Below, one piece after another: positions 3,412 to 29,316 of a stretch of DNA of 33,237 nt. The notes beneath the pieces were generated by a model. The model did not search any database, was not told the origin of the DNA, and was given only the letters and a program-made list of their open reading frames with translations. The first letter of the stretch is position 1, and each line of letters opens with the position of its first letter. Source of the stretch: Calothrix sp. MO_167.B42 (lineage in GTDB: Bacteria; Cyanobacteriota; Cyanobacteriia; Cyanobacteriales; Nostocaceae); NCBI GenBank assembly GCA_030065255.1, contig JASJCX010000037.1, positions 1 to 33,237 on the forward strand, given 5' to 3'. A program made the position numbers and the translations under genes.

Positions 3412-3567
3412 ATGGCTATATTTCGTCAATACATCATCCCCCTACTGGTAGTAATAACATTTTTATTTGCCCTAGTAGCAGTTAGTGCCCGTATTTTTTT
3501 ACCTTCAGATATGGCAGCACCAGCACCAATTTCAGTTAACAGTTATCAGTTGACGGTTGACGGTTAA
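3412..3567 (+). CDS. Putative 51-aa single-TM small protein
   Basis: ATG at 3412; reads MAIFRQYIIPLLVVITFLFA and continues with one long hydrophobic helix (about residues 7-31), then a short Ala/Pro-rich tail. The last codons and the TAA stop are encoded by the heptamer repeat that begins near 3540, so the natural end may have been lost. No clear ribosome binding site. Codon use looks coding, but it is too short for confident assignment; it could be a small inner-membrane protein or a chance reading frame. Confidence 0.4.
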   Translation: MAIFRQYIIPLLVVITFLFALVAVSARIFLPSDMAAPAPISVNSYQLTVDG

Positions 3568-3712
3568 GAGTTGATAGTTGATGGTTGATAGTTGACAGGT
3601 CGGAGTCAAGAGTTTTAATTTTTTCACTCCCCATCTCCTCATCCCCTCATCCCCTCATCTCATCACCTCCTCCACTCTTCCACTCCCTCACTCCTCCACT
3701 CCCTCACTCCTT
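3540..3712. repeat. Composite repeat: GTTGACG/GTTGATA heptamers plus CTCATCCC/CTCCACTC tracts
   Basis: A heptamer array (about 3540-3598), a unique-looking joint containing ACAGGTCGGAGT, a T-rich stretch, then pyrimidine-rich CTCATCCC and CACTCCCT tracts up to 3712. Most of the array (about 3552-3650) recurs in inverted orientation near 32955-33050. Confidence 0.85.
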
Positions 3713-3715
3713 CCC

Positions 3716-4234
3716 TTGAATTTACATCCTGAATATCATATCCGCCGTGGCTCTACCCTAGATAAGCCCCTATTATTTAAGTTTATGCAACTAACCTATG
3801 GGGAAATGTTTCCAGGGCAGGATTTTGCTCATCTGCAAAAAACCGTTGAGCAATATCTTTCTCCAGAAACACCCTTATGGTGGGCAGATTTTTTCGGGGA
3901 TAACGCCAAGCATAAATCTGAACCGGGAGTAGTTCAACCTTCCCCCACCCCAGTAGGTTGTTTGTGGGCTGGTAACGCCATCGATCAAGTACATGGCGAT
4001 CGCCACTTGCATATTTTTTTACTTTACGTTGCCCCAGAACACCGACAACAGGGAATTGCCACAGCCTTAATGAAAAATTTAGAATCCTGGGCAAAGGCAA
4101 GAGGCGATCGCCAAATTGGATTACAAGTATTTCAAACTAGTACAGCAGCACTAAACCTTTATCAAAAGTTTGGTTATCACACCCAATCTCTGTGGATGGT
4201 TAAACCCTTACAAAAGGAGACAGGGGACAGTTGA
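3716..4234 (+). CDS. GNAT family N-acetyltransferase
   Basis: 172 aa. The GNAT acetyl-CoA site is seen as LYVAPEHRQQGIATALMKNL (about residues 102-121; motif A, Q/R-x-x-G-x-A), followed by the C-terminal STAALNLYQKFGYH helix/strand typical of the fold. Substrate unknown. The start used is TTG at 3716; no better ATG lies upstream because the preceding 170 nt are repeats, and no ribosome binding site is visible. The last codons (GDS) and TGA stop merge into a GTTGATAG heptamer array, so the C-terminus may be repeat-derived. Confidence 0.8.
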   Translation: MNLHPEYHIRRGSTLDKPLLFKFMQLTYGEMFPGQDFAHLQKTVEQYLSPETPLWWADFFGDNAKHKSEPGVVQPSPTPVGCLWAGNAIDQVHGDRHLHIFLLYVAPEHRQQGIATALMKNLESWAKARGDRQIGLQVFQTSTAALNLYQKFGYHTQSLWMVKPLQKETGDS

Positions 4235-4285
4235 TAGTTGGTAGTTGACAGTTGACAGTTGACAGTTGACAGTTGGTAGTTGATG
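4205..4285. repeat. Heptamer array (AGTTGAC/AGTTGGT)
   Basis: Tandem AGTTGAC units starting within the last codons of the GNAT gene. Positions 4235-4598 hold no gene: they contain this array, a fragment of a dispersed element (TTCGGATGATTA near 4308), the inverted repeat at 4342-4415, and short pyrimidine-rich repeats to about 4495. Confidence 0.9.
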
Positions 4286-4341
4286 GTATTAAGGAAACTT
4301 ATATCAAGTTCGGATGATTACTTAGAATAAAATCGCTAAGA

Positions 4342-4415
4342 GTAGGTTGGGTTGAGGAACGAAACCCAACACCATCAGCCTTTTGTTGGGTTTCACTTCG
4401 TTCTACCCAACCTAC
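4342..4415. repeat. Large imperfect inverted repeat (dispersed hairpin element)
   Basis: The left arm begins GTAGGTTGGGTTGAGGAACG and ends ACCCAACA; the right arm (from 4384) begins TGTTGGGTTT and ends CCCAACCTAC. The arms are about 30 nt, complementary apart from a few mismatches, with a loop of about 12 nt. This resembles a small non-autonomous palindromic element common between genes in cyanobacteria. It lies downstream of the GNAT gene and could also end transcription. Confidence 0.8.
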
Positions 4416-4598
4416 ATTTAATTACAAGTATTTAAACTGACATGGTATTACTCATTACTCATTACTTCCCCACACTCCCCCTTACTTTCTATTTCCCAGC
4501 TACAAATAATAGGGTGGGAAAGTGTATCATGATAATGATTGCAAATTAGGCTTTCACTTGTTGGGGGTTTATATATTATTAATTAATCCCAATCAGGG

Positions 4599-5393
4599 AT
4601 GGAAACAAATTTAAGTATGTATGACGAAGAAGAACTAAGCTTATTAGATGCTGAAATTGGCCTAGAAGAGCCTTTGGACCCCCTAGATCAAATAGAGCCA
4701 CTTACTGCTGATTCAGAAGTGGTTAAACCCGATCCAGAGGAAATGTTAGCCTTATTAGCAAATCCCCAACCCCAGCAAAGGATGTTGGCGGCCCGTGCCT
4801 TTTGTGACATTGAAGATGCCAGGGCTATCCCCCATTTGATTGGTTTGTTAACAGATACTTGTGCCCTAGTGCGGGTTAGTGCTGCTTACGCCATTGGACG
4901 AAATCCCAGCCCAGATGCAGTAGAACCACTGATTGCTCAACTTAACCAAGATTGGAATGGTTACGTGCGTAAAGGAGTGGTTTGGGCCTTGGGAAATTGC
5001 CGCGATTACCGATGCCTACCACCCCTCACAGATGCTTTAAGAACGGATATATCCGCAGTCCGTTTATGGGCGGCTAGTTCCCTGGCTCAAATGGCTGATG
5101 TTGGCTATGAAAGTGTGGTAGGGGCAATTCCACCCTTAATAGAAGCCTTACTCACAGATCCCATTGCCGCAGTACGTAGTAATTGCGCCTGGACTATTGG
5201 ACAATTATGTCGCGAACTGCCATCCAATATAGTTTATGGTGCCGCCATTGATGCCATAATTCAAGCCTTTGCCGAGGACCAAGACTTGGGAGTGAGGGAA
5301 GATGCCAAAGCATCCATATTGAGCGTTGGCGATCCTAGGGGATTGCAATTAATAGAAACCTTGGAAGAGGAAGGATGGTTTCTGGAAAAATAA
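4599..5393 (+). CDS. HEAT-repeat protein (PBS-lyase-like HEAT repeats)
   Basis: 264 aa. A strongly acidic N-terminal tail (about residues 1-45) precedes about six HEAT-like helical repeats from residue 48 to 250, with recurring patterns such as ARAIPHLIGLLTD, AVEPLIAQLNQ, VRKGVVWALGNC and VRSNCAWTIGQL. Such repeats bind proteins; related modules occur in phycobilin lyases (CpcE/CpcF, PecE/PecF) and in many cyanobacterial scaffold proteins. No partner lyase subunit or phycobiliprotein gene is adjacent, so a lyase role is not supported. The ATG at 4599 is preceded by CAGGG and an AT-rich stretch suitable for a promoter. A monocistronic gene is likely. Confidence 0.8.
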   Translation: METNLSMYDEEELSLLDAEIGLEEPLDPLDQIEPLTADSEVVKPDPEEMLALLANPQPQQRMLAARAFCDIEDARAIPHLIGLLTDTCALVRVSAAYAIGRNPSPDAVEPLIAQLNQDWNGYVRKGVVWALGNCRDYRCLPPLTDALRTDISAVRLWAASSLAQMADVGYESVVGAIPPLIEALLTDPIAAVRSNCAWTIGQLCRELPSNIVYGAAIDAIIQAFAEDQDLGVREDAKASILSVGDPRGLQLIETLEEEGWFLEK

Positions 5394-5553
5394 AAATGAT
5401 CGAATTGACTAAGAAGCAAAGGATACAAGTCCCTAACTTGCTGGTATGGGGTCAAACGGATTATCTGTTTGTCAAAATCGTTCGACTGAGCTCACGACGA
5501 AGTCTAAAATCCAAAATCGATTGACAATTTCTAGTAGATATTTTTCACGCACC

Positions 5554-8409: not shown

Positions 8410-8472
8410 ATGTCCCCTCCAATCCGGACATCGAAAATCAAGATTTTAGCTAACTTAAAACTTGCCACCTCC

Positions 8473-9192
8473 ATGACTGTTATTAATCCTAAGTGGATCC
8501 CTGTACCGACAGATTTGACATTGTTACCGGATGATGTTCATGTTTGGCGCATAGACCTTGACTTGCCAGAAGCAAAACTGCGAGAATTACGTAAGACCCT
8601 TTCTGATGATGAGATTACCCGTGCAGATAGATTTTATCAGAAGTTACACAGGCATCGTTTTATTGCCGGTAGGGGTATTTTGCGAACCATATTAGCAAAT
8701 TATTTGGGTATTGAACCTAGCCAGGTGCAATTTGAATACGAACCCCTAGGAAAACCAATATTAGGTTCGATTTACGGTGAAAATCCCCCTTGCTTTAACT
8801 TATCCCATTCCCAAGGTTTGGGGTTGTGTGTGGTGAGTTGCGATCGCCCTTTAGGTATAGACTTAGAATATATTCGCCCCATGTCTGATTTACTTTCCCT
8901 GGCAAAACAGTTTTTTGCTCCTTCTGAATATGGTTTAATTCAATCTTTACCGCCACAACAAAAGCAAGAAATATTCTTTCGTTATTGGACTTGTAAGGAG
9001 GCTTATTTAAAAGCAACGGGTGTGGGATTGTCTAAGTTACGGGAAATTGAAATTATCCTTAGTCCTAGGGATTCTGCCAAGTTGAAGAATGTTGATGATT
9101 GGCATCTATTAGAAATCAAACCGGGAGATAATTTTGCTGCTGCTGTGGCTATTAGTGGTTTTGGTTGGCAAATGAAATATTGGCAGTATTAA
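8473..9192 (+). CDS. hetI: HetI, Sfp-type 4'-phosphopantetheinyl transferase
   Basis: About 239 aa from ATG 8473; the reading frame is open to an ATG at 8410, but the extra 21 residues are not expected for HetI (about 237 aa, starting just before a W-x-P-x-P segment, here WIPVPTD). Transfers phosphopantetheine from CoA to carrier proteins in the cytoplasm. Sfp-family motifs: RGILR near 67-71, FNLSHS (108-113), the Mg-binding GIDLE (D130, E132) and WTCKEAYLKATG (W172, K175, E176, K180). It is convergent with hglB, and its likely targets are the three ACP serines of HglE and HglB. A heptamer repeat begins right at the stop codon. Confidence 0.93.
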   Translation: MTVINPKWIPVPTDLTLLPDDVHVWRIDLDLPEAKLRELRKTLSDDEITRADRFYQKLHRHRFIAGRGILRTILANYLGIEPSQVQFEYEPLGKPILGSIYGENPPCFNLSHSQGLGLCVVSCDRPLGIDLEYIRPMSDLLSLAKQFFAPSEYGLIQSLPPQQKQEIFFRYWTCKEAYLKATGVGLSKLREIEIILSPRDSAKLKNVDDWHLLEIKPGDNFAAAVAISGFGWQMKYWQY

Positions 9193-9224
9193 GAGTTGAC
9201 GGTTGACGGTTGACGGTTGACAGT
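9188..9224. repeat. Heptamer array (GTTGACG)
   Basis: Several GTTGACG units starting at the hetI stop codon. The same unit is found at 3551-3565 and, in inverse orientation, near 33035-33055. Confidence 0.85.
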
Positions 9225-9342
9225 TAATGACAAATCAAACTAACCAAATTCCTCAATAGGTAGGAGTAATTAAATATAAGAGGCGAAGCTCAACCCCAGC
9301 CCCTCTCCTTCTTGAACCTCATTCCTTAAACCTCACCCCCAG

Positions 9343-9368
9343 CCCCTCTCCTTAATAAAGGAGAGGGG
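9343..9368. terminator. Perfect 11-bp hairpin in hetI-hglB convergent gap, possible bidirectional terminator
   Basis: CCCCTCTCCTT - AATA - AAGGAGAGGGG: eleven perfect pairs with a 4-nt loop. It lies inside a longer dispersed element (about 9290-9368, with CCCCAGCCCCTCTCC twice). No T-run follows immediately, so classical rho-independent termination is uncertain. The remainder of 9193-9615 holds no gene; hetN would be expected here from the Anabaena arrangement. Confidence 0.6.
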
Positions 9369-11151: not shown

Positions 11152-11160
11152 AACAATTAT

Positions 11161-11300
11161 CCGTTATCCGTTATCCGTTATCCGCTATCCGTTATCCGCT
11201 ATCCGTTATCCGTTATCCGTTATCCGCTATCCGCTATCCGCTATCCGCTATCCGTTGCCACTATCCGTTGCCACTATCCGTTGCCACTATCCGTTGCCTC
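11161..11300. repeat. Tandem array: 13 heptamers CCG(T/C)TAT then 13-mers ATCCGTTGCCACT
   Basis: Thirteen CCGTTAT/CCGCTAT units (11161-11251) are followed by about three 13-nt units and a partial copy. The array is almost the entire hglC-hglB spacer. Its reading frames (repeated SVIRYPL) are artefacts. Confidence 0.95.
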
Positions 11301-11319
11301 ATCTCCAGTTAAATAGTTA

Positions 11320-13050: not shown

Positions 13051-13133
13051 AATAAAGGTGATTTTGACGTTTCATATTCTGATTCAGCAATGCCAGGGAG
13101 GGAGTATAATCCTGTGTTCTTTCTTTTGACTTT

Positions 13134-16100
13134 TTACTTTTGACTTTTTACTTCTTCTAGGAGGTTGGCGGCGCAGGCTATTTGTAGTTGGATGATTTGG
13201 CTCATTTGTTGGCTAAATTCTTGGCGGGATTGGAGGAAGGTGTTATGGGTTTGATGGAGGTGTTGGTTGTTTTTATGTATTTGTTGATAGTGGGGGTGGA
13301 TGTTGGGGGTGCTGGTGTTTGTCATGGGAGATGTTGAGGGTTGATGGTTGATGGTTGATGGTTGATGGTTGATGGTTGATGGTTGAGGCTTGGGGGTTGA
13401 GGCTTGGGGGTTGAGGGTTGATGGTTGATGGTTGATGGTTGATGGTTGAGGGTTGTTGGTTGATGGTTGAGGGTTGATGGTTTGTTGATTTTTGGCAGGG
13501 GTAATTGCTTTCTTAGCTATATTGTGGAAAAGTTTTTTGTTCTCTTCTGTGAGAATTTTGTCAATGAAACTTTCACCACCTAAAATCACTTTTTTCTGGG
13601 TGAGTTTTGCTTTTTTAGTTGTTTGTGGTTCAGTGGAGATTAATGGGGATAAATCTACTTCAACTTGATGGCTAATGAGTTTGGCAAGGGCTTTGATTAT
13701 CCCTGCATGGTCATCTAATCCCCTACGATTGAGGGATACGGTAAGGTGGGGATGTTGACTCAAGTTTTTGCCTATCCACCGAGAACATACGTTACCAGCT
13801 CCGGTTTCGATGAAGATTCTGGCTCCATCAGCATACAGTTGGTTGACTAGACGAGGGAAGTCGAGTTGTTGACATAATCCCGTTGCTATGCTATGGGCGA
13901 TCGCACCACTTTCTAATTGCACGGGGCCATATTTAGCGGCGGAATAGAGGGTGGTGGCTGGTAGATTTTGTTGCATTTGTAACGTATTGACCCTGGCAAT
14001 TTCCCCGAATTCCGACTGCATGGCTTGGCAGTGGATCACGTGGTCGAAGGGGGCGCGAAAGGCGTTACAGCCAATGGTTTGGATGACGCGATCGCATGCT
14101 TTGGGATCTCCGGCGATGACTACTTCTTCGGGGGTGTTAATTTGGGTGAGGAAGACTTTTGGCTCGTTTTTAATGGCTTCTTGGACGTAGGAGGGGGTGG
14201 CGACGAGGACGTAGTTAGCCCAAATATTATTGTCTGGTGTGTGGTTGGGGGGTATGTGCCAAAATTGACGCACTGCTTGTTTCTCCCCGGCCAATTTGTT
14301 GGCGAATAGGGGGGATTGATGGAGGGAGACAATGCCTTGGGTGAAGTTATCCCATATTCCCATGGCAGACATCATGCTGGTTTCCCCTAGGCTGTAACCA
14401 AAGGCAAATTTGGGTTTGATTTGAAAGTCGTCTCGGATAATTTGGGTGATGAATCTGGTGAATAACATATCCAAGTCGAAGATTGCCAGGGGATTTTCTA
14501 GGAATTGTTTTTCCAGGTTTTCTAGCTGTCTGGTGGAGAGTTTGTTGAGGCTGCGGGGAAAGACTTGGTGGGAGCTGGCTGCTACTAAGTCTTGTAGGTT
14601 GGTGATGGCAACGTCATCATGAATTTTGGGAAACAGGCGGAAGAGGTTGCGGGCAATACCTAGGTAGGAGTTGACGGCGGCGGGATAGATGTAGGCGACT
14701 TCTCCGGTGGTGCCTAGGGGGTTGGCACTGAAGTAGCTACCTAGGGGGGTTTGCCAGTCTTTGCCGGTTTGCAGGGCTGTTTCGATACCTTTATGGGCTG
14801 AGGTGATTTCCCTGGTTAATTCTTTGGGGTTATGGGCGAGGATAACCAGGGTATATTTCCCGAGGGGGGATTGTTGGTATTTGATAAGGGCTTGGTTGGC
14901 AGCATGAGCCAGGGAAGTACCATTATTAATGGTAGTAACTAAAGTATCTGCCTGGGCAAGTAAATCTGCTGTAGTTTTACCAACAATAGGGAAGAGATAA
15001 AAAGGAGTCTGTTGCAAAAACTTATTGCTCCCTTTTCTCCCCTGCTCCCTGCCCCCTGCCCCCCTGTATCTTCCCCCTGCCTCCTGCCTTCTGCCTCCTG
15101 CCTCCGATAAAATCACATGGGCATAACTGCCATCAATACCCATACCATTAATAGCTGCCATTCTTTTACTGGCTTGCTTCTCCCGGAACCAAGGTCTGGA
15201 TTCTGTGGCAACATAAAAGGGACTACCTTGCCATTGTTCTTGGTTTTTGACTCCCGTCCATTTAGGAGTACCAGGGATGTATCGGTGATGGAGGCAGAGG
15301 GCGGTTTTAATTAAGCTAGCCATGCCAGAGGCGACGTAGGTATGGCCGATATTAGCTTTGACACTACCAATGGCGCAGGTTAAATCATGGCTACCGTTGG
15401 CATAGGCTTGGGTTAAACCAGTGATTTCCGCTTCATCTGTTTGGGGAATGCCACTACCCACAACTTCTAGGTAATTGATATCTGTAGTTTTTACCCCCGC
15501 ATTTAATAGGGCTTGTTGACTAACTTGGTTAACAAAACCCGGATTTGGTTGAGCCAAAGTAGAGGCAGGGGAGCAGGGAGCAGGGAGCAGGGGGGAGGAT
15601 TGGATGGAAGAGTCCCCTCCGCCTATTCCCTGTTGGCTAAAACTCAGGGCATCAATGGCCGCATAAATTTTATCTTGGTGCTGTTGAGCAGTGTCATGGC
15701 GTTTTAACACCACCGCCCCCGCACCTTCTCCCACCATCCAGCCATCAGCTTTTTGGTCATAACTTAGGGTATTTACCCCTTGATTTAGGGTAGCAAATTG
15801 GTTGCGTAATAAAACATTTTCCACACCACCAGCTAAATCCACCGCCCCCACCAGTACGGCATCCGCTTCCCCGGTGGTGAGCAGGTGTTGTGCCACTTCT
15901 AACACCTTGAAAGTGGAATTTTCCCCCGCCGTCATGGTAAATACTGGGGCGGTAAAATCCCAGAGGGAGGAAATCCGACTCGCCATAATATTGGCAATGT
16001 AACTGACATACTCACTCGTAGCCACGGGGTGATGGATACCATCCTTCACAATAGTTGCTAATTGATTTACCTTCTCTTCCGGTAAAGCAATTTCCCCAGC

Positions 16101-17999: not shown

Positions 18000-18172
18000 A
18001 GGGAGTGAGAGAGTGGGGGAGGGGAGTGTAGACGATATGTATCTATAATTTTAGGAATATATAATCTAAAAATTATTTCCTTAATATTCCTTCCCTCTTT
18101 CCCTCCTTCCCTCTTTCCCTCCTTCACTCTTAACTCTTAACTCTTAACTCTTAACTCTTAACTCTTCCCTCC
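18000..18172. repeat. GGGAGTGA tract, CCTTCCCTC tract and (TTAACTC)n heptamers
   Basis: A purine-rich GGGAGTGAGAG tract (18000-18030), a short unique stretch, TCCCTCCT repeats (18090-18125), then five TTAACTC heptamers up to the hglG stop codon. This fills the hglD-hglG spacer together with an ACGCTCCAGACGC fragment near 17960. Confidence 0.85.
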
Positions 18173-19900: not shown

Positions 19901-20246
19901 AACTTCTCCTATAAAATTTAATCAAATTCCGCGACTGCAATCTTATTGCTCTCTTCTTCTCTTCTTCTCCTCTTCTCTTCTTCTCTGCGCTCTCAGCGCC
20001 TCTGCGGTTCATAAATTCTTAAATTTGACCCATCCTTACAGAGATTTGAACTTATAGCAATGGACATATTTCAACTGCCAACCGTCACCGAAGAGGCAGA
20101 GGGGCAGGGGGCAGGGGGAGTGTGGGGAGTGTGGGGAGTGTGGGAGGTTTAACCATCAACTGTCAACTGTCAACTCCTAACTCTTAACTCCGAACTGTCA
20201 ACCATCAACTACCAACTAACAACTAACAACTAACAACTAACAACTG
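19901..20246. other. Intergenic region upstream of hglG, mostly repeats
   Basis: No gene. It holds TCTTCTTC pyrimidine repeats and a GCGCCTCTGCGG dispersed fragment (19945-20010), a unique stretch of about 80 nt that could contain a promoter, a G-rich tract (20088-20145), and a long mixed array of CAACTGT, CTAACTC and CAACTAA heptamers (20155-20275). Confidence 0.7.
19906..19910 (-). promoter_or_regulatory. Strong ribosome binding site of hglG
   Basis: Minus-strand AGGAG followed by AAGTT and the ATG at 19900. This is the clearest Shine-Dalgarno sequence of the hgl series; hglE, hglD and hglB have none as good. Confidence 0.7.
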
Positions 20247-20729
20247 TCAACTATCAACTATCAACTCAAAACTTTGAAAATACCTAGGAGAATCATCGCG
20301 ACGATATTCAGGATTCCTTCGAGGTGCAGCATTAAGAATGAGAATAACAATCGTAAATAAAGCGATTGTAGCTACTATGACAATTGGCAATAAATTACTA
20401 CTTTCTACATCCCATTCCAACCAAGAATTGCTGTTACTATCTTCCTCATCCACTCCCAACAAACGAATATCTCTTAGTTCTGTTTGTTCGGGGGATAATT
20501 GGATAGGATATTGGTAATTTCTGTAACCCTCAGCTTCTACAATCAATTCACCTTGTAGGGCATTTGTATCTGTAGAATTGATGAATAATCGATAAATTCC
20601 TTCTATATCAGTGTAAGTAAAAATTGAAATTTCTTCTGAATTAAAAGATACTTTTGCTCCACTAATAGGAGCTTGTCTTCGTTGATCGATAATACGACCA
20701 GTGTAACTAATGCTGGGGGATTGTGACAT
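20247..20729 (-). CDS. Small protein with carboxypeptidase-regulatory-like domain and C-terminal TM helix
   Basis: 160 aa. Residues 7-92 form a beta-sandwich of the carboxypeptidase-regulatory-like type: YTGRIIDQRRQAPISGAKV, then YTDIEGIYRL and VEAEGYRNY, the usual 'G.V.D...P.pgA.V ... T.dG.y.l' pattern. An acidic linker is followed by one strongly hydrophobic helix (about 112-132) and a basic tail. There is no signal peptide, so the domain probably faces the cytoplasm with a tail anchor. Its place between hglE and hglG suggests a role in holding the synthase at a membrane, which is inference; in Anabaena this position may correspond to the gene called hglF, but I cannot confirm homology. The final residues (LIVDS) and the stop codon are encoded by heptamer repeats. 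Confidence 0.7.
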   Translation of the reverse strand: MSQSPSISYTGRIIDQRRQAPISGAKVSFNSEEISIFTYTDIEGIYRLFINSTDTNALQGELIVEAEGYRNYQYPIQLSPEQTELRDIRLLGVDEEDSNSNSWLEWDVESSNLLPIVIVATIALFTIVILILNAAPRRNPEYRRDDSPRYFQSFELIVDS

Positions 20730-20754
20730 ATATTTACACAGGCTTATCCGTTGT

Positions 20755-20978
20755 CTATTTTAGATTTTAGATTTTAGATTGAGAATCCGTTATCCGTTAT
20801 GTGTTATATCAAATCCGGTTACATCGGAATGATAAAAAACCACAGAGGCACAGAGAGCGCAGAGGAAGAGGGGAGTGTGGGAGGTGTGGGAAGAAATATT
20901 ATTGATTTGTCTTACTCACTCCTTCACTCTTAACTCTTCACTCTTCCCTCTTCACTCTTCACTCCTCCCCTCTTTCCC
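20755..20978. repeat. Repeat-filled spacer between hglE and the small TM protein gene
   Basis: TTTTAGA and ATCCGTT repeats (20757-20800), a dispersed ATATCAAATCCGG fragment (20806-20835), a CACAGAGGCACAGAGAGCGCAGAGG element (20840-20866, listed by position), a GGGAGTGTGG tract, and TTCACTCTTAACTC heptamers to 20975. The hglE stop codon is followed directly by this material. Confidence 0.85.
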
Positions 20979-23900
20979 TCAGGCTATTAAAGTAACTCTC
21001 CCTTGGGAACCGTAAGCGACTTCAGTTAAGTAGCGATTGGGGTCATGCAATTCTGCAATAATATGATTAGCTGCATCTCCAGCATTAATATCGGGACTAA
21101 TATCGATGGCTCGACAAAATACCTTTTCCCATTCCCAAATCATGCTCTTGGTTAACCCGAATAAACCAGCACCAATGGCTCCAAAGTTAACTTTCTGCTC
21201 TAACCCAAAAGCACCATCTAATCTAGCTACTGTACAAAAACAACTGCGCCCATTACCATTTGCGGCTTGATTGAGGGACTTTTGCAGATGTTTCGCCATC
21301 AAGAAGATATGTTTGACAATTGCTTTCTCTTCTGGAAAATAGGGAACTGTAGCCTGGGGATGCTTGCCAAATAATGGATGTAGATGGATGAATGCTCCTA
21401 CGTTACCATATTTTGTTGCGATCGCATTTAGTTGTTGTTGTAAATGGGTTTCGCTCATGTCTTGTAGGGTAATGCGGTTGACTCCTGGGGGTAAAGTAGA
21501 TTGTTGGGAAATTAAGGAGGGGGGGAAACTTAAAACTATGACTTTCCATCCACCCTCGATTAACATTTGTGCCACTTTGGAGGTGGTGAGGGAACCATCA
21601 TCGGTAATTAAGCCAATGTGTCCCTCTGGTAATGTGACTTGCCAAAAATCTGGTTGGGGCAGGTTTTTCAATCTAGCTGTCAGCCGTTTAACGTTATGGT
21701 TTAGTTCCCTTGGCTGACTAGGAGATTGGGGTTGGGACTTTTTTTTTTCTCCAGCTAATTTCTGGAGGTAAGCAACGATTTGAGCAATGGTACGCAATTC
21801 TCCCAAGTCTTCTACGTTGTCTGGTTTGGGTAAGTCTGGGTACATCTCTTGTAATGCTCCCATGATTTCCACCCGTTTGATGGAATCAATCCCTAAATCT
21901 GCTTCCAAATCCATATCCAGTTCCAACATCTCCACTGGATAACCAGTTTTCTCACTGGTAATGGCTAACATATTCTCGGATAAGTTGCTTAAATCAGCTG
22001 TCACGGTTTCAGCTACAGGTTCCTCTACGGGTGCAGCTATTGGTGCATTCACCACCACTGTTGATTCCACTGGGGTAGTAACTGGAGCTGCAACAGGAGT
22101 CGCAATATTGTTAACAGCAACCTCTTCTACTACGGGGGTGAGTTCCATGGTAGGTTCAATTACGGGTTCGGTGACGGTGGGAGCTGCTACCCCTGGAGCC
22201 ACGGCAGTTCCAGATTTACCCCCTAAGGATTTGAGATAGTCAACGATTTGAGCAATGGTACGCAACTCTCCCAAATCTTCTACGTTGTCTGGCTTGGGTA
22301 AGTCTGGGTACATCTCTTGCAATGCGCCCATAATTTCCACCCGTTTGATGGAATCAATGCCCAAATCTGCTTCCAAATCCATATCCAGTTCCAACATTTC
22401 CACTGGATAACCAGTTTTCTCACTGGTAATGGCTAGCATATTCTCGGATAAATTACTCAAATCCACAGCAACGGGTGCAACGGATGTAACGGGTGCAACG
22501 GATGTAACGGGTGCAACGGATGTAACGGATGTAACAGGTTCAGCAACAGATGCAACGGATGTAACGGATTCAGCAACAGATGCAACGGATGTAACGGATG
22601 TAACAGGTGCAGTTATCTGTGCATTTTCCACCACAGTTGTTGCTGGTTCTTCCACCACTGGTGCTGGTGCAACTTCCATCACAGCAGCAACACCATTCCT
22701 CACTTCAGGCTCTGGTTGACTTGCCGACTTAATTGCTGGTAACTCAACAACAGGATTTAACTTAGGTTCTGGGGGAGTATGGATAACTTCTTGCACTGGT
22801 AAACTCCCTTCCCCATTTACCATTGCTTCTCCACCATTTTCCATCCCCATCAACTGAGAATACTCTTGTTGAATTAATTGGAAAAAATGTTTAGTATATT
22901 CAACCTGTTCCCGTAAATACTGCTCATGAACCCGCAGAGTATCACCTTGCTGACTATGGAACTGCTGCATACTGCGATTTAAACTATCAACAATCCCAGA
23001 CTGCAACCCCACCCCAGATTTACCCTTACCAAACAAAGCATTTTGCTGTTGAATCAACTGGAAAAAACTCTGAGCATACTCCACCTGATGCTGCAAATAG
23101 TTGCTGTGAACCTGTAAACTCTCCCTTTGACTTTGCTGAAACTGAGTCAACACATATTCCAGACTAGATAAAATCCTCTGGGAATCAACAACCTTCTTTG
23201 TATTATCCATATCTAAATTCTGCATATCCAACCGAGTCATAGAACCATGGGAAACCTCAGATAATGGAGCAGGCTGCAAATCAGCAACAATAACCTTCTC
23301 CTGCAAACCATCTACCTTCCCATTCTTCTCTTCCTTTGCGCCTACCCTGCGGGAAGCCACTTCGTGTCTAATGCGTCTTTGCGCGAACCCCTCATTCTTC
23401 CCATTCACCAAAGCCTGCTCAAATCCCAACTTAGTCTTATCAGACACATAATTCGCCCCATTCAACTGGAACCTCAAACCCTTCTTCTGCTGAGGCTCCG
23501 GCAGCGACTTAGGCACATAATAAGGATCCAAATTTTGCAGACATACACCAGCCACCCGTAACTGTACCACAGCTTGACGCAAACAGCGATCGCTATTTTT
23601 CTGGGAACTGGGATTCAAAGCAATCGCCATGTGGGGACGCTCGCCCAAAATATCCTTCACCAAATTAGTGAGAATCTTCCGGGGGCCAAATTCAATAAAG
23701 CAGTAACCCCCCGCACCGTAAATATTCTCAATTTCCTGCTTAAACAACACAGAATTAGCAATGTGAGTTTCCAGAATTTTCTGAATCTCTGGGGCTGTGT
23801 GGGGATATTCCTGGGCCGTTACATTACTATACACAGGCACCAGGGGATTATGGAACTCCATATCCTTAATGGCAATGGCAAAGGATTTCTGGGCAAAAGC

Positions 23901-26411
23901 AATTAAAGGGGTGTGGAATGCCGCCGCCACTGGTAACAATACCGTCGTGCAGCCTTGGTTATCCAATGCATCCTTTACTCTGTGAATTTCCGCTGTGGGT
24001 CCGGCCAATACCACTTGTGTGGGAGAATTGAGATTAGCGATCGCTATTTGCGGAAACTGTTTTAAAATGCCCTCAACCTTGCTCAATTCTGATTTCACCG
24101 CCAACATGGTTCCGGTATCGTAGTGGGGATCTTGGGGTGCTGCCATTGCCTGTCCCCGGGCTTTTACCAGGAGGCAATAATTCTCATCAGTCAGCACTCC
24201 TGCCGCCCACAATGCTGTTAATTCACCAAAACTATGTCCGGCAACAAAATCTGGTTTTAACCCGGCTTGCTGGAGAATTTTGTACAGTCCTGCACTCAAC
24301 ATGCCAATGGCGGGTTGGGCATAGTCTGTCCGTTGTAATGCGGCAATTTGGCTATTCTTTTCTTCTTCGGTAAATACGGGGTTGGGGAAGACAACTTCCG
24401 ACAAGGGCTTTAAGTTCTCTTGCAGCAGTAAACTATCCATGTAACCGTACATCTGCCGCATTTGGGGGAAGTTCATCACTACTTCTTTACCCATGTCTAG
24501 GTATTGGGAACCTTGCCCGGAGAATAAAGCTACTACTTTACCCCCCAATTCCATGCCAGTGGCGTGGTAGAAAATTCCTTGGGGATGCTCCCAGGATGCT
24601 GCTGAAGTTTTATTTTTCAACAAATCCACGGCCATTTTCAGTAACTTACAACTTTGAGTTAAGGAATCGGCGACAAAACCCAACCTGGCAGTACCGTGGG
24701 GAATCTCTAGGGATTTACATTCTTCTACTAAGTTGAGATATTGCTGTTCTCCCTGCTCCGATTGCCACTGGTTCAGGGTTGCTTCACACTTAGCCAACAA
24801 TTGGGCTGGATTTTCTGCATACAGCAACACTTGGGAACCAGAATTATGTAAGCGATAAGCTTGCTCATGCTCCCCTTGGTATTCTTCCAACACCACATGA
24901 TAATTAGTCCCCCCAAAACCAAAGGAACTCACACCCGCCCTTCTGGGGGGTTGTCCCTCAGCCCGAATCCAAGGCCTGGTTTCGGTGTTTAAATAGAAGG
25001 AAGAATCATTCAGATTTAGTTTGGGGTTTGGTGTTTTCACATTCAGGGTGGGTGGTAAAACCTTGTGGTGTAACGCCAAGGCAGTTTTAATTAAACTCGC
25101 CGCCCCCGCAGCCGCCTTGGTATGTCCAATTTGGGATTTTACCGTACCCAAAGCAATGTGTTGGCGTTTTGAGTCAGTTTCCCCGAAAAAGTCCCGCAAA
25201 GAACCAAATTCCGTGGGATCTCCCGCCATTGTCCCCGTACCGTGGGCTTCCATTAGGGTTACGGTTGATGGTGGAATCCCTGCATCTTCGTAGGCACGAC
25301 GCAGTGCGGCTACTTGCCCTTCTTTCCGGGGAGCATAAATACTCTTATATCTGCCATCGCTGGAAGTACCAATTCCCTTAATTACGGCATAGATTTTATC
25401 ACCATCCCGCTGGGCATCTGCCAACCGCTTGAGTACCATCATGCCGATGCCTTCACCCAACATCATACCATCGGATTCGGCATCAAAGGGCTTGACTGTA
25501 TGGCTGGGGGAAACTGCGGGGGTTTTGCTGAAACTAATATAGGCAGTAATAGAGTTATCAGTATCCACACCACCAGTGAGCATCATATCGCAACGATGGT
25601 CCACTAATTCCCCAATGGCCATTTTCAAGGCTGCTAAGGAACTAGCACAAGCTGCATCCACCGTACAATTAATCCCCCCCAAATTGAGGCGATTAGCAAT
25701 TCTCCCAGAAATGACATTTGCCAACATGCCGGGGAATGAATTTTCATCCCACTTCACATAGGCGCTCTTGATTTTCTCAATAATTGTTTGGGTATCTTCA
25801 TCGGATAAACCACTACTTTTGAGGGCTTTTTGCCAAATGGGATATTGCAAACGCGCTGATAGGGGAATGCCTAATTTCAAAGCCGCCGAACCTAAAATTA
25901 CTCCGACATTTTCCCGATTAAACTCACGCTCCAAACCATAACCAGCATCAATCATTGCTTCTTTAGCAACAATCAAACTGAGTAATTGGGAAACATCAGT
26001 GACTTCCAAAATGTTGGGGGGAATGCCAAATTCTACGGGATTAAAATCAATCTGGGGGAGGAACCCACCTCGTTTACAATAGGTTTTATCCTCTGGGGTT
26101 CTGGGATTAGGATCGTAATAATCATCTACATTCCAGTGGGACTCTGGAATATCAGTAATACAATCAATTTTATTAACAATATTTTCCCAATATTCTTGGA
26201 TATTTCTGGCTTCGGGAAATAGAGATGCCATGCCCACAATGGCAATAGGACTATGTTGCAATTGCCGATTAATTTTATCATTGGATACAGATTTATCAGA
26301 TTTATCGGACTTCATGTTTTTCCCCTTTATAAACTCAACTATTGCCTGTTCGCAATTATCAATCTGCTCTTCTAATTGTGATAAGGCAGTATCAATCCAA
26401 TCAGCAGACAT
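20979..26411 (-). CDS. hglE: HglE: PfaA-like polyketide synthase, KS-AT-ACP-ACP-KR structural half
   Basis: 1810 aa. A short helical N-terminus (1-45); KS about 53-510 with C255 (VDAACASS), His in EAHGTGT and His in SQIGHTK; malonyl-type AT about 640-990 with S727 (GHSFGE); a region of two Gln/Tyr/Phe-rich helical repeats (about 1080-1190); Ala/Pro/Val/Thr linker; ACP1 with S1354 and ACP2 with S1510, both GIDSIKRVEI as in PUFA synthases; and a C-terminal Rossmann-like region (about 1585-1810) equal to the structural, non-catalytic half of a PKS ketoreductase. It starts the polyketide chain of the heterocyst glycolipid. A dispersed repeat is inserted in frame at about residues 1005-1026, and the first linker is expanded as TSVAPV-type units. 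ATG 26411 has no clear ribosome binding site. First gene of the cluster. Confidence 0.94.
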   Translation of the reverse strand: MSADWIDTALSQLEEQIDNCEQAIVEFIKGKNMKSDKSDKSVSNDKINRQLQHSPIAIVGMASLFPEARNIQEYWENIVNKIDCITDIPESHWNVDDYYDPNPRTPEDKTYCKRGGFLPQIDFNPVEFGIPPNILEVTDVSQLLSLIVAKEAMIDAGYGLEREFNRENVGVILGSAALKLGIPLSARLQYPIWQKALKSSGLSDEDTQTIIEKIKSAYVKWDENSFPGMLANVISGRIANRLNLGGINCTVDAACASSLAALKMAIGELVDHRCDMMLTGGVDTDNSITAYISFSKTPAVSPSHTVKPFDAESDGMMLGEGIGMMVLKRLADAQRDGDKIYAVIKGIGTSSDGRYKSIYAPRKEGQVAALRRAYEDAGIPPSTVTLMEAHGTGTMAGDPTEFGSLRDFFGETDSKRQHIALGTVKSQIGHTKAAAGAASLIKTALALHHKVLPPTLNVKTPNPKLNLNDSSFYLNTETRPWIRAEGQPPRRAGVSSFGFGGTNYHVVLEEYQGEHEQAYRLHNSGSQVLLYAENPAQLLAKCEATLNQWQSEQGEQQYLNLVEECKSLEIPHGTARLGFVADSLTQSCKLLKMAVDLLKNKTSAASWEHPQGIFYHATGMELGGKVVALFSGQGSQYLDMGKEVVMNFPQMRQMYGYMDSLLLQENLKPLSEVVFPNPVFTEEEKNSQIAALQRTDYAQPAIGMLSAGLYKILQQAGLKPDFVAGHSFGELTALWAAGVLTDENYCLLVKARGQAMAAPQDPHYDTGTMLAVKSELSKVEGILKQFPQIAIANLNSPTQVVLAGPTAEIHRVKDALDNQGCTTVLLPVAAAFHTPLIAFAQKSFAIAIKDMEFHNPLVPVYSNVTAQEYPHTAPEIQKILETHIANSVLFKQEIENIYGAGGYCFIEFGPRKILTNLVKDILGERPHMAIALNPSSQKNSDRCLRQAVVQLRVAGVCLQNLDPYYVPKSLPEPQQKKGLRFQLNGANYVSDKTKLGFEQALVNGKNEGFAQRRIRHEVASRRVGAKEEKNGKVDGLQEKVIVADLQPAPLSEVSHGSMTRLDMQNLDMDNTKKVVDSQRILSSLEYVLTQFQQSQRESLQVHSNYLQHQVEYAQSFFQLIQQQNALFGKGKSGVGLQSGIVDSLNRSMQQFHSQQGDTLRVHEQYLREQVEYTKHFFQLIQQEYSQLMGMENGGEAMVNGEGSLPVQEVIHTPPEPKLNPVVELPAIKSASQPEPEVRNGVAAVMEVAPAPVVEEPATTVVENAQITAPVTSVTSVASVAESVTSVASVAEPVTSVTSVAPVTSVAPVTSVAPVAVDLSNLSENMLAITSEKTGYPVEMLELDMDLEADLGIDSIKRVEIMGALQEMYPDLPKPDNVEDLGELRTIAQIVDYLKSLGGKSGTAVAPGVAAPTVTEPVIEPTMELTPVVEEVAVNNIATPVAAPVTTPVESTVVVNAPIAAPVEEPVAETVTADLSNLSENMLAITSEKTGYPVEMLELDMDLEADLGIDSIKRVEIMGALQEMYPDLPKPDNVEDLGELRTIAQIVAYLQKLAGEKKKSQPQSPSQPRELNHNVKRLTARLKNLPQPDFWQVTLPEGHIGLITDDGSLTTSKVAQMLIEGGWKVIVLSFPPSLISQQSTLPPGVNRITLQDMSETHLQQQLNAIATKYGNVGAFIHLHPLFGKHPQATVPYFPEEKAIVKHIFLMAKHLQKSLNQAANGNGRSCFCTVARLDGAFGLEQKVNFGAIGAGLFGLTKSMIWEWEKVFCRAIDISPDINAGDAANHIIAELHDPNRYLTEVAYGSQGRVTLIA
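21773..21995 (-). repeat. Direct repeat unit encoding ACP2 of HglE
   Basis: A 223-nt segment nearly identical to 22241-22463 (offset 468 nt, 156 codons). Only about a dozen differences are seen, mostly synonymous, pointing to recent duplication or gene conversion of the carrier domain. Confidence 0.9.
22241..22463 (-). repeat. Direct repeat unit encoding ACP1 of HglE
   Basis: Partner of the unit at 21773-21995. It ends directly at the expanded TSVA-type linker. Confidence 0.9.
22465..22615 (-). repeat. In-frame minisatellite coding for the HglE pre-ACP linker
   Basis: On the plus strand, units built from GCAACGGATGTAACG and GATGTAACGGAT. All units are multiples of three, so the protein shows TSVAPV and TSVASVAE repeats. 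It sits before ACP1, where PUFA synthases normally have Ala/Pro-rich linkers. Confidence 0.9.
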
Positions 26412-26867
26412 AGGAATAATATTTGGTATTATGGATAGGATTGTTAACGGTTATCAGTTATCCGGCTAATTTGAGTTTAGCCAGAACAATCTCATAACTC
26501 GGTGAATATTTGCCCTTAGCTTTCTTTCATTGAGAAATTTTGCTGACTCGGCGTTGGATTAAGGGGATGATTTTTATCTCGCGCAAAGGCGCAAAGGCGC
26601 AATGTTTATTCTGCACAAATAATCTAAATTAATCCCGCATTTATACAACGTCGATTACTCAATTAAAGCTGTGTCAATCAGTAATTATTTTTCTCACAAA
26701 TTGCCATCATTGACCAAGGAAATATAGCAATAGATATATTGTTTAGATTAGTTAAGACAGTATTATTCAACTGCTCGCACTGAGCTTGTCGAAGTGTCAA
26801 CTATCAACTGCCAATATTTAACACAAATAATCAATGATTAATGAAAAATAAATACTTGATTTTGTAC
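26412..26867. promoter_or_regulatory. Upstream region of hglE (promoter region, no clear consensus)
   Basis: No gene. It must contain the hglE promoter on the minus strand. A TTGACA lies at 26677-26672 (minus) with TATAAA 26 nt further, too far for a normal spacing. No GTA-N8-TAC NtcA box is seen. A dispersed CGCAAAGGCGCAAAGG element (26578-26602) and one arm of the 42-nt inverted repeat (26768-26809) are also here. Confidence 0.45.
26768..26809. repeat. 42-nt perfect inverted repeat, left arm
   Basis: Begins CAACTGCTCGCACTGAGC and ends GTGTCAACTATCAACT; identical, in reverse complement, to 27720-27761. The core (GAGCTTGTCGAAGTG) resembles a dispersed element found in many bacterial genomes; a related fragment is at about 5480-5500. 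Confidence 0.9.
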
Positions 26868-27146: not shown

Positions 27147-27492
27147 AGCCAATTGCAACGTCCAAGATAATATAGTTTATGGAATTTAGCGATGAAAAGT
27201 TGACAAATTTGTTACAGAAGATATGCATAATTTATCCGAATTAATCAAATTTGTCGAGCATAAATATAACTGTCAATTGGTGATAGCATTAATGACAAAT
27301 TTTAGGTTTACTTACCCATCGACAATAAATTAAATAATCTATCTTGCTGTGAACCAAACTGTAGACTTCAATTAATCAAAATCTAGCATAGCTATAAATG
27401 GCCGAAGAGTTCATTATTATTCATTTTATCAACAACATAAGTGTTGTTTATCAGTAATTATAAATAGCTAGTATAACTAAAAACAATTTACG
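27147..27492. other. AT-rich intergenic region with a small hairpin
   Basis: No gene is supported. It contains AACAACA-TAAG-TGTTGTT at 27431-27448, a 7-bp stem with a 4-nt loop and no T-run, possibly an operator or the foot of a small transcript. Otherwise nothing recognisable. Confidence 0.4.
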
Positions 27493-27600
27493 ATGAATAA
27501 ATATTGTGATTGGAGGAACTTTTTGCTCTTAAATGTACCTCCAATAACATATGATTTATTTTCTGTTGTTAGCCAAGGCACAGATGTAATTAATACATGA
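27493..27600 (+). CDS. Possible 35-aa peptide
   Basis: ATG 27493, reads MNKYCDWRNFLLLNVPPITY and ends at TGA 27598-27600, which overlaps the ATG of the next small frame as ATGA. No ribosome binding site. It might be a leader peptide or chance. Confidence 0.15.
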   Translation: MNKYCDWRNFLLLNVPPITYDLFSVVSQGTDVINT

Positions 27601-27725
27601 AAGGCGTTTATCCAATTCAGTATGCTTTTTCAGAGGAACATGATATTTCTCGCAAAATCCCATTAACCATTGTTAAAATAATCTTAATTGCCATTTTCAT
27701 CACAGCTCGCTTCTTTATTAGTTGA
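27597..27725 (+). CDS. Possible 42-aa single-TM peptide
   Basis: ATG 27597, overlapping the previous frame by ATGA. It begins MKGVYPIQYAFSEEHDISRK, followed by a hydrophobic helix (TIVKIILIAIFITARFFI) and ends in a TGA supplied by the heptamer repeat. GAGG-like sequence is not present upstream. The topology (charged head, one TM helix) is coherent, but conservation is needed to believe it. Confidence 0.25.
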   Translation: MKGVYPIQYAFSEEHDISRKIPLTIVKIILIAIFITARFFIS

Positions 27726-27761
27726 TAGTTGACACTTCGACAAGCTCAGTGCGAGCAGTTG
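27720..27761. repeat. 42-nt perfect inverted repeat, right arm
   Basis: Reverse complement of 26768-26809. The two arms bound a 910-nt interior. The outer side continues into further GTTGGTA/GTTGATG heptamers. Confidence 0.9.
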
Positions 27762-27965
27762 GTAGTTGGTAGTTGATAGTTGGTGGTTGATGGTTGATGG
27801 TTGATGGTTGATAGTTGATAGTTGATGGTTCAAGCTCCTTCCCACACTCCCTACCAAAAAACTTTTTGTTGCAAGCCCTACTCATTACTCATTACTCATT
27901 ACTTATTACTCATTACTTATTACTCATTACTTATTACTCATTACTTATTACTTATTACTTATTAC
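27762..27965. repeat. Heptamer arrays GTTGATG and (TTACTCA/TTACTTA)n
   Basis: GTTGATG/GTTGATA units (27765-27825), a short unique joint, then about a dozen TTACTCA/TTACTTA units running into the last codons of the ParB-like gene. Confidence 0.9.
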
Positions 27966-29316
27966 TTACCCTGAGCGCCATACTAGAAGTATTCTGAACT
28001 TGCTTTCCAGTCAAATTTTGCCAGCGCATCATCCCCCGATTCAGCAATTCTCGATTATCATCGCCAACTATGCATATGCGCCCCATTCTTTCACAGGTGG
28101 TAAGCACTTCACCTTGCCCCATAAAAGGAGCAATGACAACATCATTGGGACTGGTGTACAAATGCAGTAAATAATTGACAACTCCCTCAACCCCTTCCAC
28201 CTTAATCGGCGTGGGTGGTTGGGATATGGATTCATGGGAAAAGATACCTACATAAATATTCCCCACCAAAAATTCATATTGAAAATTCATCCGGTGCTGG
28301 CGACAAAATTGATAAATATGCCCCTGGGAACGCAAAACAGCCACAATCCTTGCTTTTTCCATGGCATAATCATGGTTCCATGTAGATGATAGGGTAGCGA
28401 TTGCTAATGCAGCATCCCCTGGTAATAAATTGATAAACTCCGCACCTCCAGTATCACCCCCATACACTCGATGTCGTCCCAATATCCATTCCTGGCTAGA
28501 TTGGGTTTGTGTCCCTATCTCTGGAGTCCCTATCTGCACTGGAATGGATACTGCTGGTATCTCCGGTGCAATTGTTAACTTTACTTCCCTGGGAGCCATG
28601 ACGTTTTTCAAGGCTATGAGCTGTAATTCTTTTTGTTTAGCCCGAGCCTTTGCCAATATTTGCATTTGTCTGTCAATTTCTGCCTGTTCTCCCCCCTGCT
28701 TTGCCTGCTCTAAAGCCTTCTGCGCCTGTTCTATTACAGCCCGTTCTTGATTACCAGCTCTAGCAACTTTCAATAGTTTTGTTGGACTATTGGCAATGGC
28801 AGTTCCCTTAATAATGTCTTTCACTTCGGGGAGAATATCTTTCGCAATTTGCTTCCCATGTTGCAAGGTACGTTTGGAATATCCAATTTCTTGGGCAAAG
28901 TCTAAGTTGGTTTTGCCAGGTAGTGAAACGGTTTCACCACCTGCTTGGGTATATTGATTGTCCCCTGGTTGCGCCTTCAACCCCATACTTGCCAACAGCC
29001 TATCCCTTTCTAACCACAATTCCGCCCGTTCTAAAGCCTCTAATTCATTGCGGATTAAATTTTCATCAATCTCCGCCAATCGAGCCTGCTCGTCATTTTG
29101 GTAATCAAATATATTGCACTCAACTTCTTCTAGCCCCAATTGTTTACAAGCTGTCAAACGATGTAGCCCAGCAATTAAATTGAGTTGACTATCTATGACA
29201 ATGGGATTTAATAAACCATTCGTTTTGATTGATTCTTTTAATTGCTTAACCTTTTCTTCTTTTATGGGGCGACGATTAGTGCCAATATAAATTTTATCTA
29301 TGTTGATTTTAGGCAT
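27955..29316 (-). CDS. ParB-like N-terminal domain fused to degenerate beta-class DNA methylase domain
   Basis: 453 aa. The N-terminal ParB/Srx-type domain (1-95) has NRRPIKEEKVKQLKESI, PIVID and the ParB box as AGLHRLTA (49-56). A helix-turn-helix-like middle follows (LDFAQEIGYSKRTLQHGKQI, 138-157), then a coiled coil rich in Gln/Ala/Lys (190-238). The C-terminus starts WILGRHRVYGGDT (277-289), as in ParB-methylase fusions of phages and plasmids, but the catalytic DPPY is gone (position taken by ATLSSTWNHDY, 307-317), while the SAM-site FMGQG (398-402) and the final RWQNLTGK are kept. Probably a DNA-binding, perhaps SAM-binding, protein without methylase activity. The last residues (VSNK) and stop are repeat-encoded. 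It is not next to parA or a replication gene. Confidence 0.75.
   Translation of the reverse strand: MPKINIDKIYIGTNRRPIKEEKVKQLKESIKTNGLLNPIVIDSQLNLIAGLHRLTACKQLGLEEVECNIFDYQNDEQARLAEIDENLIRNELEALERAELWLERDRLLASMGLKAQPGDNQYTQAGGETVSLPGKTNLDFAQEIGYSKRTLQHGKQIAKDILPEVKDIIKGTAIANSPTKLLKVARAGNQERAVIEQAQKALEQAKQGGEQAEIDRQMQILAKARAKQKELQLIALKNVMAPREVKLTIAPEIPAVSIPVQIGTPEIGTQTQSSQEWILGRHRVYGGDTGGAEFINLLPGDAALAIATLSSTWNHDYAMEKARIVAVLRSQGHIYQFCRQHRMNFQYEFLVGNIYVGIFSHESISQPPTPIKVEGVEGVVNYLLHLYTSPNDVVIAPFMGQGEVLTTCERMGRICIVGDDNRELLNRGMMRWQNLTGKQVQNTSSMALRVSNK

Follow-up and report, generated by a model that had tools for sequence, protein, structure and literature searches.

Polar heptamer arrays at coding edges of a Calothrix genome as candidate rims of small dispersed elements

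Heterocystous cyanobacteria reportedly carry heptanucleotide repeats, the short tandemly repeated repetitive (STRR) sequences described by Mazel and co-workers in 1990, and Elhai et al. are said to have tied very small dispersed elements of Nostoc punctiforme, the small dispersed repeats (SDR), to heptamer arrays in 2008 and to have judged them mobile; to our knowledge, the spread of cyanobacterial heptamer repeats has gone unexplained for decades. Here we analyze such arrays in one entire contig of Calothrix sp. MO_167.B42 (33,237 bp, GenBank JASJCX010000037.1, hereafter the window), in a sample of the same genome and in its relatives, following a preliminary description in which arrays supplied the last codons and stops of several window genes. 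The arrays consist of degenerate tandem 7-nt units in high copy, lie mostly in noncoding DNA of a heterocyst-forming host, and resemble STRR in being intergenic, in numbering hundreds per genome and in occurring in Nostocales. Whereas the STRR literature consulted treats these repeats as fingerprint markers or hairpin formers, the present arrays have a fixed polarity and appear to flank dispersed elements on one side. SDR elements reportedly sit inside arrays, whereas here arrays with polarity appear to form the rims.

For one G-rich class, such a polarity has been reported before. In Nostoc 7120 and two xanthomonads, GGGGA(C/T)T and GGGAATC repeats follow, in the portions consulted, a placement rule, near the 5' neighbouring open reading frame (ORF) irrespective of its direction, with function left open; they recognize one quadruplex-forming class and generally no association with mobile elements (Rehm et al. 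2015, PMC4692102). Our arrays share the antisense orientation before starts (30:2) and the sense orientation after stops (73:3), whereas the present rule spans many GGG-free units as well as octamers and is tied to a core. In Beggiatoaceae and cyanobacteria, TAACTGA repeats are described, in the parts of the report consulted, as arrays straight before start codons, with 13 sets overlapping an upstream stop, with stops in every frame of one strand and a possible role as translational regulator (MacGregor 2015, PMC4679880). Here too TAACTGA ends 1 nt before ATG, as in the Beggiatoaceae genome; in contrast to our comparison, close relatives were compared there on Cyanothece strains, and those parts describe no core (PMC4679880). 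Finally, miniature inverted-repeat transposable elements (MITEs), Correia elements and REPINs are, as far as the excerpts consulted go, short, non-autonomous and intergenic, with terminal inverted repeats and target duplication (PMC2229807, PMC3116915). The elements proposed here would be of a similar kind, but their rims are variable heptamer arrays, and terminal repeats and duplications were seen in a single family, named ACCTGAGTTCGG after its end sequence.

We estimate at roughly 60% the probability that each array forms the outer rim of a small dispersed element, non-autonomous and MITE- or SDR-like in kind, and that such elements make up a large and modular population; as the literature search covered one open-access collection, we make no claim that this reading is absent from print. 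An element would run from single-copy neighbouring DNA through a heptamer or octamer array whose G-rich strand points into it to a recurrent core and, often, a second array of opposite polarity. Several components of this picture are directly observed: a fixed polarity; cores mainly on one side of the arrays; the same stops taken by different arrays in congeners, with the native downstream sequence recognizable (most clearly at L132:8863-10107); one insertion at a stop that has terminal inverted repeats and is bounded by a 6-nt duplication; and one insertion in last codons where the array gives the new stop.

The assembly (5.54 Mb in 384 contigs, 80% complete) was sampled in 100 stretches covering 1,211,811 of 5,538,219 bp, in which 820 genes were called with our own small Markov caller (minimum 150 nt, starts approximate); the same caller gives 16 genes in the window. 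Arrays were detected with Tandem Repeats Finder, the ORF list and our own period-7/8 finder (score threshold 14) and oriented by GC skew, with zero-skew arrays excluded from comparisons of the two array sides (281 arrays retained). The 1.21-Mb sample holds 265 period-7 arrays and 36 of period 8, while periods 4, 5, 10, 11 and 13 yielded 0–4 each. By place, 218 of the 265 are intergenic, one lies within a called gene and 46 straddle a gene end, 44 at the stop end and 2 at the start end. Congeners were Calothrix rhizosoleniae SC01 and the metagenome-assembled genomes Calothrix sp. MO_192.B10 and MO_167.B12, which we take to be genomes G001, G003 and G002 beside the present genome, G000; window HetI shares 96% identity with its SC01 counterpart and 88% with the proteins of the other two. 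The congener stretches (the window, L132, L175 and L192) were picked for their many stop-adjacent arrays; their rates are not genome averages, and the contrast drawn is between genes inside them.

Within 15 nt of a gene edge, the G-rich strand runs 5' to 3' away from that edge regardless of transcription direction, with outward to inward ratios of 73:3 at stops and 30:2 at starts in the sample. Across tandem intergenic regions, left-to-right arrays predominate 30:1 in the first fifth, and the ratio is 3:30 in the last. Regions with several arrays, written by G-strand direction, comprise '><' (27), '>>' (3), '<<' (6), '><>' (1) and '><<' (2), and no lone '<>' was found in the sample. The rule recurs in 37 Nostocales hetI loci (27:0 at stops and 2:0 at starts), in ten stretches of genome G007 (12:0 and 5:0) and among octamers of the present genome (10:0 and 2:0). 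GGG occurs in the consensus unit of 19 of 152 stop-adjacent arrays, and the commonest units (ACAGTTG, AAGAGTT, AAGTAAT, AATGAGT and AGTTGAT) contain none. Inverted arrays are not matched terminal repeats, as units within a '><' pair resemble each other no more than randomly paired ones do (30 pairs, mean 4.13 vs 4.20 of 7).

The alternative that survives best, though we consider it unlikely, is a filter imposed by translation: arrays would arise anywhere and either way, and only the stop-rich strand would persist after stops, where a lost native stop is restored, and only the G-poor strand before starts, where no spurious ATG, GTG or TTG and no false ribosome-binding site results. Such a filter fits a polarity that reaches no further than ∼30 nt from a stop and ∼100 nt from a start, an absence of arrays within 60 nt of 64 tRNA contexts, and the ATG that follows 61 of 64 start-adjacent arrays. 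It also fits the stop content of arrays within 15 nt of stops, where stop triplets are more numerous on the sense than on the antisense strand in 101 of 152 arrays and less numerous in 24; and, in the parts consulted, it has been argued for TAACTGA, whose stop-overlapping sets lie in the stop-bearing orientation (MacGregor 2015, PMC4679880). However, polarity is complete at stops in arrays whose strands both lack stop triplets (10:0; 13:0 when up to one per strand is allowed), so stop supply is rejected as the only cause. It holds 8:1, with four arrays of zero skew, at starts in arrays whose strands both lack ATG, GTG and TTG (13:2 when up to one per strand is allowed), and 42:2 in arrays that begin 4–15 nt past an intact stop. 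The 24 arrays with fewer sense than antisense stops still divide into 15 outward, 4 inward and 5 of zero skew. G-strand polarity is thus a better predictor of orientation than stop content. The preliminary description had pointed to units bearing TGA or TAA, correctly as to their sequence, yet a stop inside an array is partly automatic, since one strand of many units has TGA or TAA in all frames, a point made earlier for TAACTGA (MacGregor 2015, PMC4679880). A translation filter further leaves unexplained both the pile-up at gene edges and the polarity toward cores away from genes.

That second polarity is seen in the array flanks. Array junctions are sharp, and inward sides often enter recurrent cores, e.g. 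CTTGAGTCGAACAATACTGTCC, GGCTTCGGCCGTGAGCTCAGC, GGGCTTGCAACAAAAAG and TTACTGTTCATAGG. When 45-nt flanks were clustered, 154 of 276 on the 3' side of the G-strand (the front) fell into 28 families; the 5' side (the rear) yielded 8 families, with 20 of its 277 flanks. Among arrays at least 60 nt from called genes, recurrent families took in 56/96 front and 15/95 rear flanks, and because the contrast persists there, genes are not its whole cause; at 100 nt or more it was 26/69 vs 7/68. A second method, paired copy number, placed the higher count at the front in 33 arrays at least 60 nt from genes and at the rear in 11, with 23 ties, and in G007, over all arrays, 14/35 front and 0/35 rear flanks belonged to families. 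Insertion of cores into ready-made arrays is disfavoured, as both sides would then share unit and direction.

Plain slippage, in which chance heptamer pairs would expand in place wherever selection permits and nothing would move, fits the two GGAGTTA-like units that SC01 has where the present genome has a long array (L192:6828), as well as gradual unit shifts along some arrays, e.g. from AAGAGTT to AGTTGAT to ACAGTTG. Yet it predicts random polarity, whereas identical few units and cores recur at many loci (the 28 front families) and orthologous stops carry unrelated units with different cores. As a sole cause, slippage is already contradicted by the recurrent cores and units, and we regard it as highly improbable; as an addition to the rim model, it would alter rim length and unit after insertion.

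Orthologues tend to have arrays at the same coding edges. Where the stop of the present gene has an array, that of the orthologue has one too in 22 of 40 gene–genome pairs, against 9 of 89 where the present gene has none (55 genes; p = 1e-7), and these 31 orthologue arrays comprise 30 that point outward and one of zero skew. Starts behave alike, with 7/15 pairs when the own gene has an array vs 1/101 otherwise. The occupants differ. At the conserved stop of L192:15298-16473, which follows SEAT, the unit is AAGAGTT in the present genome, AAGTAAT in MO_167.B12, GTTGATA/GTTGTTA in MO_192.B10 and an octamer in SC01, and at L132:8863-10107 elements of ∼46 nt (present genome), ∼131 nt (MO_192.B10) and ∼217 nt (MO_167.B12) separate a shared stop from a shared native sequence. 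In some pairs the unit is kept, as at the window's 1595-aa polyketide synthase (PKS) gene in MO_167.B12 and MO_192.B10.

Conserved place and polarity with a changing unit at such hot stops (30/31 outward, one zero skew), together with the hot starts (7/15 vs 1/101), could also reflect a function at mRNA ends, whereby arrays that are G-rich and C-poor in the sense strand might be kept for transcript 3' ends and G-poor, unstructured ones for leader-driven initiation. Against this, 18 of 40 pairs have an array-free orthologue, the MO_192.B10 array is scored inward at two hot starts, and such a function does not predict the asymmetry between front and rear away from genes; we hold it to be very doubtful.

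Insertion anatomy can be read at the gene of the 160-aa protein (window 20247-20729, minus strand). At its stop, MO_192.B10 shows an empty site, and MO_167.B12 reads TATTTA^ACCTGAGTTCGG...CCGAACTCAGGT^TATTTA, an insert that has terminal inverted repeats, carries four AGTTCGG units at one of its ends and is bounded by a target duplication of 6 nt. A second copy of the ACCTGAGTTCGG family shows a 7-nt duplication if measured over 182 nt to its outer end and none over the 138 nt to its inner end. The MITE traits seen are terminal inverted repeats in two copies of this family, one 6-nt duplication with an empty site (MO_167.B12 and MO_192.B10) and one 7-nt repeat, whereas two other junctions described below show loss instead. 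Counts of ACCTGAGTTCGG were 74 in MO_167.B12, 60 in MO_192.B10, 20 in SC01 and 9 in the present genome (3, 3, 3 and 2 for the reversed control). Among the matches listed for this MITE-like family with ACCTGAGTTCGG and CCGAACTCAGGT ends (e.g. L195:5915-6183 and L227:10337-10518), several form facing pairs ∼140–285 nt apart.

Another insertion is seen at L175:8962-9741, where the present genome has an insert of ∼340 nt six codons short of the stop that SC01 retains, and TGA comes from the array. The six native codons and the stop are lost, 21 nt in all, or 36 nt with the inclusion of a further 15 nt of weak similarity. Telomere-like repair, by which breaks between genes would acquire G-rich repeats on their 3' ends before being joined again as gene-'> <'-gene, would suit this loss, the G-strand 3' end that points away from genes, the '><' pairs with no lone '<>' in the sample, and two convergent arrays that meet almost coreless at ∼20145-20156 of the window, but it is the least probable explanation considered, given the recurrent cores, a target duplication accompanied by terminal repeats and, in several cases, native post-stop DNA that persists on the other side of the insert.

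Coding edges are enriched in arrays beyond chance. An array lies over the stop or within 15 nt of it in 8 of 16 window genes, compared to 96 of 820 sample genes (p = 2e-4); 39 of the 820 stop codons fall entirely within an array, and 39 of 790 sample starts have one across them or within 15 nt. The 208 arrays between two called genes were each placed uniformly, 1,000 times over, within the intergenic region that holds them. This gave an expectation of 18.6 overlaps with stops and 14.0 contacts (≤ 15 nt), against 36 (z 4.5) and 40 (z 7.7) observed; combined, 76 vs 32.6. Start contacts at 0–15 nt numbered 35, against 10.5 expected. The preliminary description was therefore right that placement at stops exceeds chance, whereas the preference for 3' ends that it proposed extends to starts in equal measure: the enrichment is real and is shared by both coding edges. 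With the same pile-up and a mirror-image polarity at starts, 3' ends are not special, and a process specific to them is rejected. No array lay within 60 nt of tRNA genes in 64 distinct contexts (orthologues included), drawn from the best-scoring 30 of 203 matches across four genomes; at protein-gene rates this has a chance of ∼1e-4 if contexts are assumed independent. With no array at that distance, tRNA edges are uninformative on polarity as a test of geometry against translation.

At starts, TAACTGA arrays stop 1 nt short of ATG and ATCCAAA arrays often end ∼3 nt short of ATGAC (L044, L138, L039 and others), so that both occupy the position of a ribosome-binding site.

Arrays can rewrite C-termini in individual genes. 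The 160-aa protein ends ELIVDS here and YEKVI in SC01 (VI or QAI in congeners), the 1595-aa protein ends VKSQK whereas SC01 lacks this tail and ends LLED, and the 580-aa protein ends EGGKS vs EGK. At L175:8962-9741 the protein ends SEG within the array, compared to SENTSSSP in SC01, and HetI of MO_167.B12 and MO_192.B10 gains seven array-read residues (SQLTVDS or SQLIVDS). Window HetI and the 1810-aa protein are unaltered despite a following array. Overall, with 2 of 131 gene–genome pairs left out for tails longer than 30 residues, C-termini differ by at least two residues in 15/40 pairs with an array at the own stop and 22/80 with an array in neither (p = 0.30; 55 genes), and in 4/9 with an array in the orthologue alone. 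Trimming and replacement of C-termini, as envisaged in the preliminary description, thus hold for single genes (160-aa, L175:8962-9741 and hetI of two congeners), and are unsupported as a frequent, general effect.

Several results weigh against the rim reading. The contrast between front and rear is not significant in the present genome at 200 nt or more from genes (5/35 vs 2/36), and is absent from congener loci at least 60 nt from genes (18/49 vs 17/47), where orthologous copies inflate both sides. A search back from nine cores met an adjoining array with its G-strand toward the core 83 times, its C-strand 4 times and no array 55 times, but the cores were chosen from array-adjacent flanks, so 83:4 is not an independent sample. 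Array units differ within front-flank families, so that no single fixed sequence makes up both rim and core, and terminal repeats with target duplication were seen in two copies of one family only. Two junctions, those of L175:8962 and of the 160-aa gene in the window, have lost native DNA, which clean transposition would not predict. At L192:6828, the insert lies inside a two-unit GGAGTTA-like heptamer still visible in SC01, with a long array and element in the present genome, and local repeat growth may also contribute. Gene-relative polarity is lost past the ∼30 nt and ∼100 nt given above. Among 15 loci whose genomes are mostly non-heterocystous, polarity is less marked (stops 5:2 within 15 nt, starts 1:1, one '<>' region), and one window array breaks the rule: the CGGATAA array at 11157..11254 points inward, 5 nt from the start of the hetM-like gene.

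Rims alone, moreover, do not account for the pile-up at coding edges above uniform placement. Elements would land widely and would survive where the loss is small, i.e. in the gap between a stop and downstream signals, in dispensable last codons, or before starts without an essential leader. As a G-strand rim often has TGA, TAA or TAG in its first units, an insertion that deletes the native stop could be survivable. Array-rimmed elements that settle at coding edges in this way would, we think, probably account for polarity, turnover, stop supply and occasional new tails together.

In the window, the genes include hetI, a thioester reductase gene that we take to be hetM-like, PfaD-, PfaA/PfaB- and ketoreductase/dehydratase (KR/DH)-like synthases, an 1810-codon PKS gene in which ketosynthase, acyltransferase and phosphopantetheine (PP)-binding domains were found, and GNAT, Uma2 and ParB-like genes. 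GNAT is assigned by Pfam PF00583, ParB_N and Uma2 by Pfam, and HetI exceeds the NCBIfam cut-off. HglD, HglE and HglG were labels of the preliminary description only and correspond here to the 1595-aa PKS, the 1810-aa PKS and the 580-aa KR/DH.

The stops or last codons described earlier as lying in arrays do so for six frames. An AGTTGAT-type array (3533..3598, +) covers the last codons and TAA (3565-3567) of the 51-aa frame (3412-3567, +), and one of GACAGTT type (4215..4282, +) gives GDS and TGA (4232-4234) to the GNAT gene (3716-4234, +). On the minus strand, AAAAGTC/AAAAAGT (13123..13156) gives VKSQK and TAA to the 1595-aa PKS gene (13134-17921), AAGAGTT (18122..18166) the last codons and TAA to the 580-aa KR/DH gene (18158-19900), whose stop has different arrays in all three congeners, AGTTGTT/AGTTGAT (20156..20266) LIVDS and TGA to the 160-aa protein gene, and AAGTAAT (27879..27968) VSNK and TAA to the ParB-like gene (27955-29316). 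The inward side of the last array enters the recurrent core GGGCTTGCAACAAAAAG, and across a short core it faces an AGTTGAT array (27757..27830, +) in a '> <' pair. In the SC01 orthologue of the ParB-like gene (L223), an in-frame stop lies five codons ahead of the end of the aligned VSNK tail, and the array codons lie past this earlier stop.

Repeats were also said to begin right at certain stops, as borne out for hetI (8473-9192, +), where GTTGACG (9195..9225, +) starts 2 nt past TAA and congeners have other arrays, and for the 1810-aa PKS gene (20979-26411, −), where an AAGAGTG-type array (20922..20967, −) lies 11 nt past the stop. Two further cases are mixed. The 155-aa gene has a purine repeat of 14-nt period (3195-3254) from the second base past its stop, with the called heptamer array at +42, and in the 42-aa frame (stop 27725) about two units reach the stop, with the called array 31 nt beyond. 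Neither the 51-aa nor the 42-aa frame is called as a gene; the latter is under the 150-nt minimum of the caller. A GTTGGTA-type array (243..292, −), absent from the earlier list, lies 8 nt past the stop of the Uma2 gene (301-903, −) with its G-strand outward. The CGGATAA array (11157..11254, −) separates the PfaD-like gene (stop 11320, −) from the hetM-like gene (start 11151, −); the gap here is 168 nt, mainly array, compared to 5–7 nt in the three congeners.

Repeats also occur inside window genes. Interior arrays of the 1595-aa PKS gene (13333-13482, 17406-17464, 15040-15105 and 15569-15598) lie in a stop-free orientation, and the first two encode repeating linkers that contain QPST (e.g. 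HQPSTIN), so that arrays can be carried within a protein. In the 1810-aa PKS gene, a 9/18/30-nt in-frame repeat (22468-22611) expands an Ala/Thr/Ser/Val linker right before the first of two near-identical stretches. Elsewhere, the short element CTTCGACAAGCTCAGTGCGAGCAG and its reverse complement stand beside heptamer units at 27735-27758 and 26771-26794, ∼1 kb apart, and inverted copies of a composite repeat, identified by eye, lie near both window ends (3595-3650 and 32952-33012), each with G-rich octamers, a GAGTGAAAAAAT...AAAACTCTTAACTCCGACCTGTCAAC core and C-rich heptamers.

The test of front against rear and the comparison of the same stops across congeners sharpen the question to what enzyme moves an array-rimmed element, and why to coding edges. 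For annotation, C-termini and starts in such genomes may run into repeats (96/820 stops, 39/790 starts). The element model offers a simple reason for the published polarity whose function was left open. More tentatively, Nostocales may harbour fast-turnover modular elements with self-diversifying rims of fixed polarity that re-dock at the same coding edges, unrelated among congeners, and continually give C-terminal tails, stop replacement and leaders without a Shine–Dalgarno sequence, the polarity of the quadruplex class being their general signature. Such elements would provide one route for remodelling protein C-termini and 5' leaders among close species.

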